The position numbers were made by a program, and so were the translations under genes. A DNA stretch of 64,000 bases from assembly GCA_016178705.1 (NCBI GenBank), contig JACOST010000011.1, positions 124,001 to 188,000 on the forward strand. The letters run 5' to 3'. Each line of letters begins with the position of its first letter. The stretch's first letter is position 1. Under the pieces are notes generated by a model that was given only the letters and a program-made list of their open reading frames with translations, did not search any database and had not been told where the DNA came from. This stretch comes from Deltaproteobacteria bacterium (GTDB taxonomy: Bacteria > Desulfobacterota > Binatia > HRBIN30 > JACQVA1). This document shows positions 26,505 through 44,165 of the stretch, piece after piece.

Positions 26505-27050
26505 CTACATCCCTCGCGTAACGAAATCGGCGCCGAGATTGAGCAGCGCGACGTTCTTCTCCGCGAGATGTTGGCGATGAGGCGGCAGCGACTCGCGCAT
26601 CGCGGCGATGAGCGCTTCGTGCGGGACCAATGCGGTCGCGGCAACGAACGCGCCGAGGGCGATCATGCCGGCGCCCATGATGTTCTTCGCTTCCTCCGCC
26701 ATCTTCGTCGCCGGGACGCTCAGCAGCGTGACGTCATCGCGCGCCGGCGCCGGAACCAACGTCGAGTTGAGGCACAGCACGCCGCCCGGGCGCAGTTTCT
26801 TGCTCTGCTCCGCCAGCCCCGTCGCGTGCATCGCCAGCACGCTCCAGGTGAGCGGGATGATCGGTGGCGCTTGAATCGCGTCGTCACCGATCACCACCGT
26901 CGAGTCGCTCGGCCCCCCGCGCATCATGCCGCCGTAAACCCCGAACAGCATGACCTGCTTGCCAGCCTGCATCGCAGCCTGCGCGAGAATCTTCGCCATG
27001 AGCTGAATCCCCTGCCCGCCGATACCGGTGATGATGACTTCGCGTTCCAT
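26505..27050 (-). CDS. 2-oxoacid:acceptor oxidoreductase gamma subunit, orphan
   Basis: 181 residues starting MEREVIITGIGGQGIQLMAKILAQAAMQAG, the signature of the gamma (POR/KOR/IOR gamma) subunit of pyruvate/2-ketoacid/indolepyruvate ferredoxin oxidoreductases, followed by VYGGMMRGGPSDSTVVIGDDAIQAPP. The complete enzyme needs alpha, beta and usually delta subunits for oxidative decarboxylation of 2-oxoacids to acyl-CoA; none lies next to it here, although they could be elsewhere in the genome. Confidence 0.88.
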   Translation of the reverse strand: MEREVIITGIGGQGIQLMAKILAQAAMQAGKQVMLFGVYGGMMRGGPSDSTVVIGDDAIQAPPIIPLTWSVLAMHATGLAEQSKKLRPGGVLCLNSTLVPAPARDDVTLLSVPATKMAEEAKNIMGAGMIALGAFVAATALVPHEALIAAMRESLPPHRQHLAEKNVALLNLGADFVTRGM

Positions 27051-27210
27051 GGTGTGGTGTTCACGTCAACGAGTGGGACTCACGGTCTGGTGGTGCATAG
27101 ATCAAACCCGCGACGCGGTGCAATCGGAACACCGCTCACCCGAAACGTCGAAACGCGCGAAACACCGCGATCCGTTGAGTTCGTTCACCGCCGCGACTAG
27201 ACTCCGTCGC

Positions 27211-27564
27211 GTGCCACAGTCGTCACGAAGGCTTGACCTTCACCGCATTGCTGAGGAGCGCAGCATCGCCTACCACCGAGTGATCGCCCAGCGCCTGCTT
27301 CTTGATGGGTCGTTGCTTGAGATTGCGCGCGCACGCGTTCAGAGCTGGCTGGAGGGCGGTCACCCCATACCGGAGTACGCACGCGCGTGGAGCGAAATTC
27401 TTGCTCAGGACATGGGAACCATCGCGGGCTCGCTGATCGATTCGAGCGAGCGAGGTCGCGAGCTGCGTCAGTCGTCGCCGTTCGCCGGCTGTTTGTCCGC
27501 TCAGGAACGCTGGCGGTTGTGGCGTGAGGTGCGCAGCCTGATTGAACAGACCGATGACACGTGA
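27211..27564 (+). CDS. small helical protein upstream of DUF6036-type nucleotidyltransferase (candidate antitoxin)
   Basis: About 117 residues from a GTG at 27211 (the frame is open upstream to 27028). Predicted largely helical: LDLHRIAEERSIAYHRVIAQRLL, ARARVQSWLEGGHPIPEYARAWSEILAQ, SPFAGCLSAQERWRLWREVR. This type of protein is seen directly upstream of small nucleotidyltransferases in many high-GC bacteria, by recollection only. It overlaps the next gene by 11 bases, as toxin-antitoxin pairs often do. I could not assign a named family. Confidence 0.5.
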   Translation: MPQSSRRLDLHRIAEERSIAYHRVIAQRLLLDGSLLEIARARVQSWLEGGHPIPEYARAWSEILAQDMGTIAGSLIDSSERGRELRQSSPFAGCLSAQERWRLWREVRSLIEQTDDT

Positions 27565-28084
27565 AGCGCTCGAACACCTCATCCGTGCCGCCGCCGACAT
27601 CGCCGACGATGATGAGATCGTGGTGCTGGGGAGCCAGGCCCTCCTTGGTCAGTTTCCGGCGGCCCCTGCCGCCTTGCGCGTCTCCTGTGAAGCCGACGTC
27701 TTCCCGCGCAATCATCCGGAACGCGCGGACCTGATCGACGGATCGATCGGTGAGCTTTCGCCGTTTCACGCCACGTACGGTTACTACGCCCACGGGGTCG
27801 CCGAGTCGACCGCCGTGCTACCCGACGGGTGGCGCGAGCGCTTGATCCCCGTTCGCAACGAGAGCACGCGCGGCGCAACCGGCTGGTGCCTCGAAGTACA
27901 CGACTTGGTGGTGTCGAAACTGGCCGCCGGACGAGAGAAGGACTTCGCCTTCGCCCGCGAAGCGCTCGGGCATCGGCTCGTCCACGCACCCACACTGCTG
28001 GCGCGGATCGAAATGATCCCGCTCGCGCCCGAAGCACGTGAGCGACTCCGCACATGGGTGCGATCCTACGGCGATCAATCGTAA
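27554..28084 (+). CDS. DUF6036-like nucleotidyltransferase (candidate toxin)
   Basis: 176 residues from the ATG at 27554. The nucleotidyltransferase-fold signature is VVLGSQALL (Gly-Ser motif) followed by a D/E-x-D metal motif in SCEADVFP, then a substrate-pocket DGWRERLIPVRNES and EVHDLVVSKLAAGREKDFAF (helical Lys-rich motif). Such proteins are annotated as DUF6036 or MNT-like nucleotidyltransferases and are found in toxin-antitoxin-like two-gene units. It overlaps the upstream helical protein gene. Confidence 0.65.
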   Translation: MTREALEHLIRAAADIADDDEIVVLGSQALLGQFPAAPAALRVSCEADVFPRNHPERADLIDGSIGELSPFHATYGYYAHGVAESTAVLPDGWRERLIPVRNESTRGATGWCLEVHDLVVSKLAAGREKDFAFAREALGHRLVHAPTLLARIEMIPLAPEARERLRTWVRSYGDQS

Positions 28085-28111
28085 GCGCGAAGTCGCGCGA
28101 CCATGATCATG

Positions 28112-28143
28112 GTGTTGACCCGCCGGGCGCGGCGGGTCAACAC
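28112..28143. terminator. perfect 14-bp hairpin after the nucleotidyltransferase gene
   Basis: GTGTTGACCCGCCG (28112-28125) is followed by a 4-base loop and its exact complement CGGCGGGTCAACAC (28130-28143). No U-run follows, so it may be a factor-dependent terminator, an operator or a remnant of a mobile palindrome. A smaller inverted repeat, GACCCGCG-loop-CGCGGGTC, lies at 28233-28256 in the same gap. Confidence 0.55.
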
Positions 28144-28342
28144 GGTTCGATGTCGCATGAGAGGATGCCCCGCAGTTCCTTGAATCCGTGATGCATCCGG
28201 GTGTATGAGGCGCGCATGCGTGCACCCGTATTGACCCGCGAAGCCTTGCGCGGGTCGCTGGGTCGTTGATACGCCTAATTCAAAGTTGGGCAGCAGCAAA
28301 CCGCTGTGACGGCTCGGGAGTGGCGCAGGAGAGCGTTACGAA

Positions 28343-28966
28343 GTGTTCCAGCTGATTGAGGCCCACTCCGAGACCTTGGTTGCATCCATCCTTCCTACTC
28401 ATGTCCCGAACTACGACTGGCTCGTCGAGAATATCGGTCGGGCTGGAGACTCCGCGTATCAGTCGAAGTACCGGGCCTTCTGGGCGATGAACGCGGCGCG
28501 CCTCAGCCCGGCATACTGCGCAGAGTATTTCCGCCGGCTCGCGGCTGCGGGTAGACGCCAGCCGGCGTTAGCCAGCCTCGCCACAGACCTGTTCAACGTG
28601 CCTACCCAGTCCAAAGGCCGGCAGAGTCTTCAGTTTTCCTTCGTTACAAAGCTCGTCCATATGCATGATCATCACTCCCCGATCTACGACTCTCAAATCG
28701 CGGCCTTTTACTTCTTCCGCCAACCTGACCGCGGCCTCGACCTTGCGCAGCGAGTGGAGCGGCTCGTGAACTTTCATGCGTTCCTGAGCCGTGAGTACGC
28801 ACGGATTCTCGCGAACGGGCTGCTGAGAAAGTCGATGGCCGCCTTTCGGGCTAGGTTCAAGCCCGTCCATTTCACAGACGAAAAAGTGATCGATTCCCTC
28901 ATCTGGGCAACCGTATCCCGACTCCGCGACGGAGGTCTCCGAGATGGCTCCGTCATCTATCGGTAG
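28343..28966 (+). CDS. 207-residue protein of unknown function in the accessory stretch
   Basis: Starts at a GTG at 28343 with AGGAG about 11 bases upstream. No family was recognised with confidence. The central block LQFSFVTKLVHMHDHHSPIYDSQIAAFYFF, with F-x-T-K-L-H and P-I-Y-D-S, resembles a motif I associate with HhH-GPD/OGG-like DNA-repair-related proteins (Lys plus Asp), but that is a weak memory-based link. It has about the same base composition as neighbours and sits alone between two toxin-antitoxin-like modules. Confidence 0.5.
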   Translation: MFQLIEAHSETLVASILPTHVPNYDWLVENIGRAGDSAYQSKYRAFWAMNAARLSPAYCAEYFRRLAAAGRRQPALASLATDLFNVPTQSKGRQSLQFSFVTKLVHMHDHHSPIYDSQIAAFYFFRQPDRGLDLAQRVERLVNFHAFLSREYARILANGLLRKSMAAFRARFKPVHFTDEKVIDSLIWATVSRLRDGGLRDGSVIYR

Positions 28967-29052
28967 CGTTAGCGGGTCGGCTCTGCCCAACTTGACTCTC
29001 CATGAACACGGAATGATCTATGATGGTTGATCCACGTCGGGTCGCTCGGCAC

Positions 29053-29070
29053 GCTACTCGGGGAAGCGGA
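29053..29070. repeat. CTACTCGGGG element, partial copy
   Basis: GCTACTCGGGGAAGCGGA matches the half-element at 231-246. It lies in the gap before the duplicated gene fragment. Confidence 0.4.
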
Positions 29071-29142
29071 CTGATCTCGAACTGGGTGACTCACACCGAC
29101 GAATACCCGTCACCAACCGAATCAACCATCGGCGTTGATCGG

Positions 29143-29356
29143 CGTGCATCGGCGGTTGCAATGTCCGCGATCACTTCCCTTTGAACTGCGGTGTGCGGCG
29201 TTCCATGAAAGCGGTCATGCCTTCGCGGGTGTCCTCCGACTACGTGACCAGCGATTGCACCAGCGCTTCCTCCTCGAGCGCGGTTTCGAGGGACGATTCG
29301 AGCGAGCGATTGAGCAACCGCTTCGACATGCCGATGGCGAAGGTCGGGCCTTGGGC
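29143..29356. repeat. 214-bp direct repeat, left copy
   Basis: Aligns base for base without gaps to 29991-30204 (offset 848): 15 mismatches in 214, about 93 percent identity. It covers the 3' end of an enoyl-CoA hydratase gene plus 28 bases beyond its stop. The intervening 634 bases hold the toxin-antitoxin pair. Confidence 0.85.
29171..29356 (-). pseudogene. 3' fragment of an enoyl-CoA hydratase gene with a nonsense codon
   Basis: Minus-strand reading gives the same C-terminal 60 residues as the intact hydratase at 30019-30813 (FAIGMSKRLLNRSLES and onward to PQFKGK) except that one Gln codon is TAG. Of the 11 base differences in this part, ten are silent and one makes the stop, so the copy descends from a functional gene. 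The homology ends abruptly at 29356. Confidence 0.85.
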
Positions 29357-29428
29357 AGGCCGCTCAAGTCAAACGTTGGCGGCATTAGCGGCTACCGTGC
29401 TACGCTCAACAGCGAAGTGGAGAACAAG

Positions 29429-29668
29429 ATGGCGCACTCACTAGCTGAGATCGAGGACGACGCGCTCCGATTGCCGCCCGAGGACCGCGCACGGCTCGCA
29501 GTGCAGCTATTGGCCAGCCTGGAAGGGGATGTGGAGTCGCCAGAGGAGATCGAGAAGCTCTGGCTTGCCGAGGCGGAGCGGCGCTTTCGGGAGCTGCGCG
29601 ACGGAGTGGTCGAGGGGATACCGGCTGGCGAAGTCTTCGCGCAACTCCGCGCCAAGCTGCGGCCGTGA
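29429..29668 (+). CDS. addiction-module antitoxin component (TIGR02574-like)
   Basis: 79 residues starting MAHSLAEIEDDALRLPPEDRARLAVQLLASLEGD, matching the short helical 'addiction module component' family whose opening L-x-x-A-x-x-L-x-x-x-E-R-x-x-L-x-x-x-L-L-x-S-L is characteristic. The C-terminal EKLWLAEAERRFRELRDG probably wraps the toxin. Its stop codon overlaps the GTG start of the next gene (GTGA), so the two are coupled. Confidence 0.8.
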   Translation: MAHSLAEIEDDALRLPPEDRARLAVQLLASLEGDVESPEEIEKLWLAEAERRFRELRDGVVEGIPAGEVFAQLRAKLRP

Positions 29669-29967
29669 AGGAGGCCGTCTTCCACCCGGAGGCGCGGGCG
29701 GAAGCCAACGAGTCGGTGGATTTCTATGAGGCCCGTCTCGATGGACTCGGTCTTCGCTTCCTCGCGGCGGTCGAGCACACTACCGAGCGCATCTCTTCAG
29801 CTCCCGAGTCGGGCGCGCCGCTTGCCGGTGGTTTTCGCAAGCGGATCGTTCCTGGGTTTCCGTACAGCATCATCTATCGGATCTGGCAGGATTACGTGTA
29901 TCTCGTTGCGGTCGCCCACCAACACCGCCGTCCCGACTACTGGCGGCAGCGCACGGACCGCCGCTAA
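29665..29967 (+). CDS. RelE/ParE family toxin
   Basis: 100 residues starting from a GTG that overlaps the antitoxin stop. The RelE/ParE pattern is clear: VFHPEARAEANESVDFYEAR at the N-terminus, GLRFLAAVEHTTERI, and RKRIVPGFPYSIIYRIWQDYVYLVAVAHQHRRPDYWRQR at the C-terminus. RelE members cleave mRNA on ribosomes and ParE members block gyrase; the text AVAHQHRRPDYW is that of the ParE-like group. Lies between the duplicate hydratase ends. Confidence 0.88.
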   Translation: MKEAVFHPEARAEANESVDFYEARLDGLGLRFLAAVEHTTERISSAPESGAPLAGGFRKRIVPGFPYSIIYRIWQDYVYLVAVAHQHRRPDYWRQRTDRR

Positions 29968-29990
29968 CCCGCACGGGGTGCCGGCCGGCA

Positions 29991-30204
29991 CGTGCATCGG
30001 CGGTCTCAATGTCCGGGCTCACTTCCCTTTGAACTGCGGCGTGCGGCGTTCCATGAAAGCGGTCATGCCTTCGCGGGTGTCTTCCGACTGCGTGACTAGC
30101 GATTGCACCAGCGCTTCCTCTTCGAGTGCGGTTTCGAGTGACGATTCGAGCGAGCGATTGAGCAAGCGCTTCGACATACCGATCGCGAACGTCGGGCCTT
30201 GGGC
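29991..30204. repeat. 214-bp direct repeat, right copy (end of intact enoyl-CoA hydratase gene)
   Basis: Counterpart of 29143-29356; comprises the last 186 bases of the intact hydratase gene and 28 bases of its 3' flank. Confidence 0.85.
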
Positions 30205-30813
30205 GAGCTTCTCCGCCCACTCGCGCGCGGCCGCCGCGAGTTGATCGCCCGGGACGACTTTGTTGACAAGGCCGAGACCCAGCGCGGCGTCGGCACTGAG
30301 GTCCTCGCCGAAGAACACCAGCTCCTTCGCCTTCGACAGGCCGATCAGCCGCGGCAGCAGAAATGCGCCCGCGGCGTCGATGGCGATGCCGCGGCGGACG
30401 AAGATTTCGATGAAGCGCGCGTCCTGCGCCGCGATCACCAGATCGCTGGCGAAGGCGAGGTGGGAACCGAGTCCGGCGGCGACGCCGTTGACCGCGGCGA
30501 TCACCGGCTTCTCCAACTCCCACAGCGCGCGAATCAGGCGCTGCGAACTCTGCTTCATCACCTCGCGCCCGGCGCCGGGGCCGCTCGGCCCTTGGCCGCG
30601 CGGGCCGCTGAGATCGGCGCCGGTGCAAAATCCTTTGCCGGACCCGGTGAGCACCAGCGCGCGAATGTCGCCGTTGCTGCGCGCGTCGCTGAGTACCGCG
30701 ATGAGTTCCTCGCGCATCTCGGCGTTGACCGCGTTGCGTGCGTCGGGCCGATTCATGGTGACCCAGGCGACTTGGTTTTCGAGCGTGAACTGAATGGCTT
30801 TGAAGTCGGGCAT
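30019..30813 (-). CDS. enoyl-CoA hydratase/isomerase family protein
   Basis: 264 residues from the ATG at 30813, with AGGAGAAG just upstream; the longer frame to 30855 is not needed. Crotonase-fold marks are VTMNRPDARNAVNAEM, LTGSGKGFCTGADLSG, VIAAVNGVAAGLGSHLAFASDLVIA (oxyanion hole) and FVRRGIAIDAAGAFLLPRLIGLSKA, where the catalytic acid position is Asp. It hydrates or isomerises enoyl-CoA esters. Downstream of the acyl-CoA dehydrogenase and amidohydrolase genes on the same strand, which suggests a degradation pathway. Confidence 0.88.
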   Translation of the reverse strand: MPDFKAIQFTLENQVAWVTMNRPDARNAVNAEMREELIAVLSDARSNGDIRALVLTGSGKGFCTGADLSGPRGQGPSGPGAGREVMKQSSQRLIRALWELEKPVIAAVNGVAAGLGSHLAFASDLVIAAQDARFIEIFVRRGIAIDAAGAFLLPRLIGLSKAKELVFFGEDLSADAALGLGLVNKVVPGDQLAAAAREWAEKLAQGPTFAIGMSKRLLNRSLESSLETALEEEALVQSLVTQSEDTREGMTAFMERRTPQFKGK

Positions 30814-30900
30814 GTTCTTCTCCTTCCGCTCCCTCGCCCGGAGGGAGACTGTCAATGAGCGCGGCCGTCGCGCTGTTTCCTAGCAGATTTTCCTCTCCCT

Positions 30901-30980
30901 GTAGGGGCGACGCATGCGTCGCCCGGAAGTGACATGTCCGCTGCGGAGAAACCGGAGGGCGATGCATGCGTCGCCCCTAC
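30901..30980. repeat. 80-bp palindromic dispersed element, copy 1
   Basis: Starts GTAGGGGCGACGCATGCG and ends CGCATGCGTCGCCCCTAC-type inverted sequence. Each end also carries an internal GCGACGCATGCGTCGC palindrome. The reverse complement of its interior (TTTCTCCGCAGCGGA) matches the interior of the second copy at 44029-44110, so the two are the same element in opposite orientation. Confidence 0.8.
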
Positions 30981-31028
30981 GCTCAGAGACAATCGACTGC
31001 CTCTCTCCGGGAGAGGGAAACTGTTGCG

Positions 31029-43966: not shown

Positions 43967-44028
43967 ACGTGATCTCTGGGTCTAGTCGCGTCTCGAACCT
44001 GCCCGCGACTTGCTATCTTCTCTGAAGC

Positions 44029-44110
44029 GTAGGGGCGATGCATGCATCGCCCTCCGTCTTCTCCGCAGTGGATCTCGTCAATTCGCGGGCGACGCATGCG
44101 TCGCCCCTAC
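44029..44110. repeat. palindromic dispersed element, copy 2 (82 bp)
   Basis: Starts GTAGGGGCGATGCATGC and ends GCATGCGTCGCCCCTAC. The interior TTCTCCGCAGTGGATCTC is related to the reverse complement of the interior of the copy at 30901-30980. Sits between the flavin oxidoreductase and the ECF sigma genes, in a 199-base gap. Confidence 0.8.
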
Positions 44111-44165
44111 ACGGAACGCGACATAGACTGGCGAGACACGAGCGCGGAGGCGCGTGGCGCATACC

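Follow-up and report, generated by a model that had tools for sequence, protein, structure and literature searches.

Among the functions reported for integron gene cassettes, toxin–antitoxin (TA) systems are one of the commonest (PMC8618304, PMC11023631). Groups of cassettes without the integron integrase gene intI (CALIN) are also known, and loss of a recognizable intI is one origin proposed for them in PMC8618304. In the fused blaGES-1/aacA4 cassettes, the truncated GES-1 attC was not an integrase substrate (PMC4670013). In Vibrio cholerae, homology-facilitated illegitimate recombination has been proposed for T6SS effector loci, which also retain displaced downstream parts (PMC5361080). The 2021 phylum list of integrons in PMC8618304 names Desulfobacterota, and Binatota is absent from it. 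Literature searches joining integron with Binatota or Binatia found nothing, the name Deltaproteobacteria being covered only in combination. Here we describe a TA pair that lies between two copies of the end of a metabolic gene in a bacterium that apparently belongs to the Binatia, next to what appear to be the remains of an integron.

A duplicated hydratase gene end brackets a toxin–antitoxin pair

The window (the whole 64,000-nucleotide stretch of DNA that was analysed) belongs to a genome that we call G000, which was compared with an order set of 15 genomes, itself included, and a class set of 148 genomes. Positions 29143-29356 and 29991-30204 of the window form a gap-free direct repeat with a start-to-start distance of 848, in which 199 of 214 bases are identical (93%) and 15 differ. 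As called by the repeat search, the family is slightly longer (223 nt, 29143-29365 and 29991-30213, spacing 848, 91% identity), and the copies have a run of 41 identical bases (29193-29233) in common. It is the largest direct repeat among the 20 of 25 window families listed, the next being 83 nt long at 71% identity. A duplicated gene end that heads the direct repeats listed in the window is too large for chance. A DNA search of G000 found no third copy.

The right copy (29991-30204, minus strand) consists of the functional 3′ end of an intact enoyl-CoA hydratase/isomerase gene and 28 bases past the gene; it is probably the imported allele, with a GC3 below that of the rest of the gene. The gene encodes 264 amino acids (30019-30813, minus strand; PF00378, 2.6e-63) and forms, together with an amidohydrolase and an acyl-CoA dehydrogenase gene, a three-gene order also found in G007. 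Repeat search and codon alignment identified the left copy (29143-29356, minus strand) as a displaced hydratase 3′ end with the corresponding 28 non-coding bases and a nonsense codon within. Comparison of 62 codons revealed ten synonymous differences and one nonsense change, CAG in the right copy to TAG in the left, and the remaining four differences fall in the 28 non-coding bases. A preliminary description of this DNA had reported a gap-free 214-bp direct repeat, its copies 848 apart with an antitoxin–toxin pair between them, and ten silent changes plus one nonsense codon in the left copy; repeat and domain searches confirmed the first statement, and the codon comparison the second over all 62 codons.

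The edges of the two copies behind the gene end differ. An intact dispersed intergenic repeat, CATCGGCGTTGATCGGCGTGCATCGGCGGTT (29127-29157, plus strand; 0/100 shuffles), which has 18 more short matches elsewhere in G000 and one in G003, is complete behind the left copy. The right copy keeps only the tail of this repeat, fused to a truncated attC. Separately, a palindromic repeat of the GTAGGGGCGACGCATGCGTCGCCC type was observed between the hydratase and amidohydrolase genes (30896-30983), with an inverted copy 13 kb off at 44026-44115.

The interval between the repeats, 634 bases, is occupied by two adjacent genes that overlap by 4 bases. The first encodes an antitoxin of 79 amino acids (29429-29668, plus strand), which matched PF09720 at 3e-14 with 53.2 bits (cut-off 23.3) and NCBIfam TIGR02574 at 31.8 bits, slightly below the cut-off of 31.9. 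The second encodes a ParE/RelE-superfamily toxin of 100 amino acids (29665-29967, plus strand; PF05016, 2.8e-9, 37.9 bits, cut-off 23), for which no NCBIfam family was found. The combination of PF09720 and PF05016 is that of a type II TA system, and a PADLOC search gave no match for the module. To judge from its intact reading frames, the pair may still work as an addiction module. A search of G000 with PF05016 gave five other places and omitted the toxin at 29665-29967, and this search was thus not exhaustive. No integrase of the kind expected within a repeat-bounded tyrosine-recombinase genomic island was found: the IntI protein of G013, a genome of the order set, had no match between the repeats.

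The pair is very probably an integron gene cassette

Homologues of the module were found by DNA search in three other genomes of the order set: G001 (81%), G012 (74%) and G008 (78%, first part only). All three lie away from any close hydratase orthologue. In the class set, 15 of 148 genomes had any match to the module, and long matches were confined to G000, G001, G012, G137, G138 and G008. For G001 and G008, the aligned part starts at positions 29374-29375 of the window, at the boundary GTTRGCGGC. The G012 alignment begins later, yet there the attI core TTGATACGCCCGATTCGAAGTT passes directly into GTTAGCGGC, with the GTT common to both. The surroundings of this shared boundary differ: the homologous segment follows attI and precedes an attC in G012, precedes an attC in G001 and follows an attC in G008. 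Because homologues in three other genomes start at one GTTRGCGGC boundary amid different surroundings, we consider it very probable that the antitoxin–ParE pair is an integron gene cassette. Its 5′ boundary is of the G/TT type, with a box that reads GTTGGCG and is therefore not a strict GTTRRRY. By eye, the distant homologue in G138 has GTTAGCG and CGCTAAC at its ends, and that in G137 does not clearly do so. The cassette was not found in plasmids.

Two observations concern the neighbours of these homologues. The G001 cassette directly adjoins an open reading frame (ORF; L146, 4459-4920) that may have hit the cassette boundary and that presumably represents a truncated transposase of the IS110 type, which it resembles. 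A link between the G012 cassette and a hydratase-like ORF on its contig was considered and dropped, as the orientation differs and G012 is rich in crotonase genes, with 19 matches.

We then compared the cassette ends with attC sites. A scan for paired R and L boxes over 22 sources, in which most sites were counted on both strands, gave 28 hits in four relatives and none in the scanned part of the window, in the G000 loci or in one shuffled set. With a covariance model trained on 13 attCs from G003, G007, G008 and G013, we scanned 25 sources. An attC immediately follows the homologue in G012 (39.4 bits, E 5.6e-7) and that in G001 (29.3 bits, E 1.9e-4), neither site having been used for training, and another immediately precedes the homologue in G008 (24.7 bits, E 2.7e-3). 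The model found no attC beside the distant homologues in G137 and G138. Over the whole of G000 it gave 12 matches at E<0.01, the E-values being rough. Two of these matches lie close to pieces of intI, on contigs C6 and C31.

In the window the covariance model found no complete attC; at the 3′ end of the cassette, the left half alone is present. This half (29962-29990, plus strand), composed of an R″ box CGCTAAC and an L″ box, ranked 3 of 127,948 with a position weight matrix (PWM) built in part from the attCs next to the homologues in G001 and G012, and 6-8 without them. It ends at 29990, exactly where the right hydratase copy starts. Its best pairing was with the right half of the attC of the G001 homologue, at −40.6 kcal/mol, which indicates that the cassette has lost the right half that belonged to its own attC.

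On the other side, an attC-like right half (L′ and R′; 29357-29381, plus strand) leads into the cassette start at G29375/TT. With a PWM rank of 375-524 of 127,948, its attC-like identity is moderately supported. Paired with the left half of the cassette it reached −22.8 kcal/mol, a value also reached by 27% of cross-genome pairs and by 30% of 2,000 random 28-mers from the window; the halves of one and the same attC paired at a mean of −30.8 kcal/mol (range −37.7 to −20.7). A single attC opened around the cassette is not supported by this pairing, which is at the level of halves from different cassettes.

An attI-like platform lies upstream of the cassette

Upstream of the left repeat copy, a 22-base core, TTGATACGCCTAATTCAAAGTT (28266-28287, plus strand), occurs once in the window (0/100 shuffles) and has an exact copy in G013, where it lies 3′ of an intact intI and attCs follow. 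Since that exact copy sits between an intact integron integrase gene and attC-bearing cassettes, we read the core as attI, with the terminal GTT as the place where cassettes would be inserted and with an intI that is oriented toward them. When up to 3 mismatches are allowed, 5 of the 15 order genomes contain the core, with 16 copies in all, and a reversed-pattern control gave 0. A slightly wider pattern with at most 1 mismatch found 11 sites in 4 of 148 class genomes, against one hit for the control. The sequence past the core varies from copy to copy, except for similar starts in three G012 copies.

Other parts of the platform can be recognized. A perfect hairpin, GTGTTGACCCGCCG...CGGCGGGTCAACAC (28112-28143, plus strand; 14-nt inverted repeat, 100%), forms its upstream part, and similar hairpins, partly imperfect, were seen by eye at the G008 and G012 platforms. 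A promoter-like pair read from the sequence, TTGAAT and TATGAG with an 18-base spacer (28180-28209, plus strand), is a putative cassette promoter Pc; hexamers like it were seen by eye in other platform copies. Three other stretches of G000 match parts of 28090-28320 at 69-77%. The preliminary description had placed the module between the repeats, which stands, and had overlooked both its cassette nature, with recognizable ends, and this orphan attI platform (28112-28290), which lies outside the segment that it covered.

The core is also traversed by an open reading frame. The attI-like copies L177, L178, L179, L180, L182, L185, L188, L189, L190, L191 and L192 carry a frame of the LTRxxxRRGLxxSLIRxIQS type through it; in several copies the frame stops at the cassette junction, and in 16 of 16 it is open for at least 18 codons upstream. 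This arrangement is reminiscent of ORF-11, a leader found in class 1 integrons. The substitutions nevertheless do not support a conserved leader peptide within attI, as third codon positions were not the most variable (11 same-length copies of 16; permutation p 0.81).

The first ORF after attI (28343-28966, plus strand; 207 amino acids) is, from its position, presumed to be the first cassette. It had no Pfam, PADLOC or NCBIfam match, and a match in 3 of 148 class genomes, G000 included. A candidate R″ box of this cassette, GCCCAAC (28985-28991, plus strand), was picked out by eye (PWM rank 1587-1938 of 127,948) and is the exact complement of GTTGGGC at the attI junction. The remainder of its attC was not recognizable, and the GCCCAAC half paired poorly with all right halves tried. 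An Rfam search of 27900-30300 returned nothing at E<=5.

Where G013 has a full intI, the window has a gene for a DUF6036 nucleotidyltransferase-like protein (27542-28084, plus strand; PF19502, 3e-9). From the G013 layout, intI would be expected at these positions, upstream of attI and in the same direction. Searching with G013 IntI (tblastn, E<=1e-3) found no intI in the window, beside attI or elsewhere. We also observed that a 178-amino-acid ORF without a known family overlaps the DUF6036 gene (27028-28084 together), and the two may form a second two-gene, TA-like module.

The intact G013 gene (C209, 2889-3890) scored 387.7 bits against the integron integrase family TIGR02249 (cut-off 265). 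Matches to this family exceeded the cut-off in 10 of 15 genomes of the order; the 14 control genomes each gave matches below the cut-off, and 0 gave one above. Genome-wide, G000 gave TIGR02249 matches below the cut-off only, and in the G000 stretches examined G013 IntI matched broken or short pieces only, the largest in three pieces on C25. Decayed integron remnants are scattered through G000 (C6:42057-44433, C31:142853-144400, C25:1371-2133, C14:586080, C28:386628 and C28:518606) and comprise intI fragments, attC matches and platform-like stretches. By its sequence features, the locus in the window appears to be a relict chromosomal integron adjoining the hydratase gene.

The two gene ends differ as working alleles do

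We compared the hydratase site across the order set. Six order genomes have a close hydratase orthologue, at 71-79% protein identity, and genes from the right side of the window lie close by for five of the six, the exception being G013. Neither antitoxin nor toxin had a match in the stretches of 16.6-19.6 kb around these six genes, so the array was either added here or lost there. An arrangement fixed in relatives, which the preliminary description had named as the finding that would count against it, was not seen in the six orthologue genomes, relatives that are too distant to provide a true empty site. No genome nearer than 79% protein identity was found as a relative of the left copy, and viral contigs contained no hydratase relatives.

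The substitutions between the copies are distributed unevenly. Differences were found at 10 of 62 third positions, 4 of 28 positions of the non-coding flank and 1 of 124 first and second positions. Neutral sites are concordant and replacement sites nearly still, which is the pattern of two working alleles. We simulated divergence with the left copy freed from selection for part of the time, and kept those runs that gave 8-12 silent changes. No more than one replacement change was obtained in 0 of 3,621 accepted simulations when the left copy was unconstrained for half of the divergence, in 0.14% of 4,373 when it was unconstrained for a quarter, and in 5.5% of 4,779 for a tenth, so that in this last case the pattern is not rejected. 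The simulations thus reject long decay in place, which means that the left copy lost its function recently and that the two ends most likely came from two lineages; the tenth-of-divergence case allows some time since the event. We regard an origin of the copies from two separate lineages as highly likely. An origin of the left copy from a working gene, followed by decay, as first described, agrees with the substitution pattern and the simulations, with the qualification that the decay is recent only.

Codon usage bears on which end is native. At the ten silent sites, the codons of the left copy fit the neighbouring genes better (ln LR 6.3). GC3 is 0.81 in the left copy, 0.73 in the right and 0.86 in hydratase codons 1-203; a GC3 as low as that of the right copy occurs in 4.6% of 304 overlapping 62-codon windows from eight genes of the window. 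Mean codon adaptation is ordinary in both copies, and polarizing the silent changes with the six orthologues was neutral (left matches 19, right 21). The codon evidence weakly suggests that the functional right end may be the import and the left end the native one.

A model for the stranded cassette

The reading that we favour, with a probability of roughly 0.58, is homology-facilitated illegitimate recombination within an old integron locus, which would have stranded the cassette and left the native gene tail behind. The repeated gene end would be the footprint of recombination between two related lineages. The incoming fragment would have carried the cassette at one end and a diverged allele of the hydratase 3′ end at the other. 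Homology would have anchored it inside the hydratase gene, and illegitimate joining near codon 203 of the native gene would have attached its non-homologous end. We give this specific joining a slightly better than even chance. The hydratase gene would thereby have gained a working imported end, with the reading frame kept, and the cassette would have been carried in. The native end, left past the cassette, would have begun to decay. Loss of the right attC half should also have made excision of the cassette impossible. An incoming fragment of this composition fits a left copy with a complete dispersed repeat and a right copy with the tail of that repeat fused to a truncated attC. Among the origins first suggested, recombination that regenerated the gene end fits best, given the allele-type divergence and the rejection of long decay.

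Two other routes to the cassette's position seem unlikely. Each of the two hydratase-copy junctions coincides with the inner edge of an attC-like half, and attC hairpins might conceivably have acted as break-and-join points. Host hairpin processing would then have cut out the cassette at two hairpin tips, and the cassette would have been spliced into the neighbouring gene end. If true, such splicing would allow integrase-independent spread of cassettes in genomes with a dead intI. The integrase may instead have used a secondary, attG-like genomic site close to the hydratase gene for inserting the cassette, with a separate event duplicating the gene end. Cassette insertion at attG sites has been described (PMC12901181, citing Loot et al. 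2024), and the clean cassette start at G/TT agrees with it. However, a long duplication and a truncated attC are not expected from site-specific insertion, so that a second event is needed, and with attI and another ORF just upstream, an array remnant is the simpler account.

A single homologous crossover, as in Campbell-type integration, of a circle in which the cassette was linked to a foreign hydratase end of about 214 bases would give gap-free repeats, foreign-type divergence and a regenerated gene in one step. One attC-like half stands on each side of the cassette, an arrangement that opening a single attC in its loop would produce; once joined, the halves fold at −25.6 kcal/mol. Against this, the two halves pair far less well with each other than the cassette's half does with its G001 partner, and a hydratase fragment within a cassette circle is otherwise unsupported. 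We consider this route improbable.

Tandem alleles of one gene end could also come from a mixture of strains, and the genome may be metagenome-derived, like its named relatives. An assembly chimera of two co-occurring strains nevertheless appears very unlikely: the hydratase–cassette junction at 29356/29357 has few shared bases and neither junction carries a shared word, which makes a misjoin at such a word unlikely, the copies differ at 15 positions, even though 41 consecutive bases of them are identical, the contig is 326,901 bases long and the assembly has 33 contigs for 6.1 Mb. Least probable is a duplication of the gene end within G000 that was later split by cassette insertion, an origin also offered at first, which would likewise yield a truncated extra copy with a stop codon but is largely refuted by the scarcity of replacement changes relative to the simulations, and by junctions that both lie at cassette or attC-like sequence rather than amid an ordinary duplication.

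Comparison with known systems

The cassette and its platform are a relict of a known kind, the integron, and both TA cassettes and intI-less groups were known before. What homology-facilitated recombination would add here is a view of how a mobile TA cassette can become stranded in a metabolic gene neighbourhood, with the displaced gene end as a record of the event. The locus also points to integrons, with integrase, attI and attC, in a bacterial group that is apparently Binatia, and it offers an attI core and an attC model for mining such genomes.

The pair shares with the TA cassettes of chromosomal integrons a two-gene TA unit, a G/TT-type start and, in its homologues, an attC end. It differs from them in that one recognized cassette and an orphan ORF are present, intI is lacking and the attC is truncated by the end of a host gene. 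Like CALIN and other integron relics, the locus has cassettes without an integrase, whereas it keeps an attI core and a promoter-like region, and no complete attC was found. Partial loss of an attC is shared with the blaGES-1/aacA4 fusion, in which the partner is the next cassette; the partner here is the end of a chromosomal metabolic gene. As proposed for the T6SS loci of V. cholerae, a module would have been anchored by homology, and the native downstream part pushed back and orphaned. Unlike those loci, the gene concerned is a metabolic hydratase with a conserved protein sequence, and the cargo is an integron cassette.
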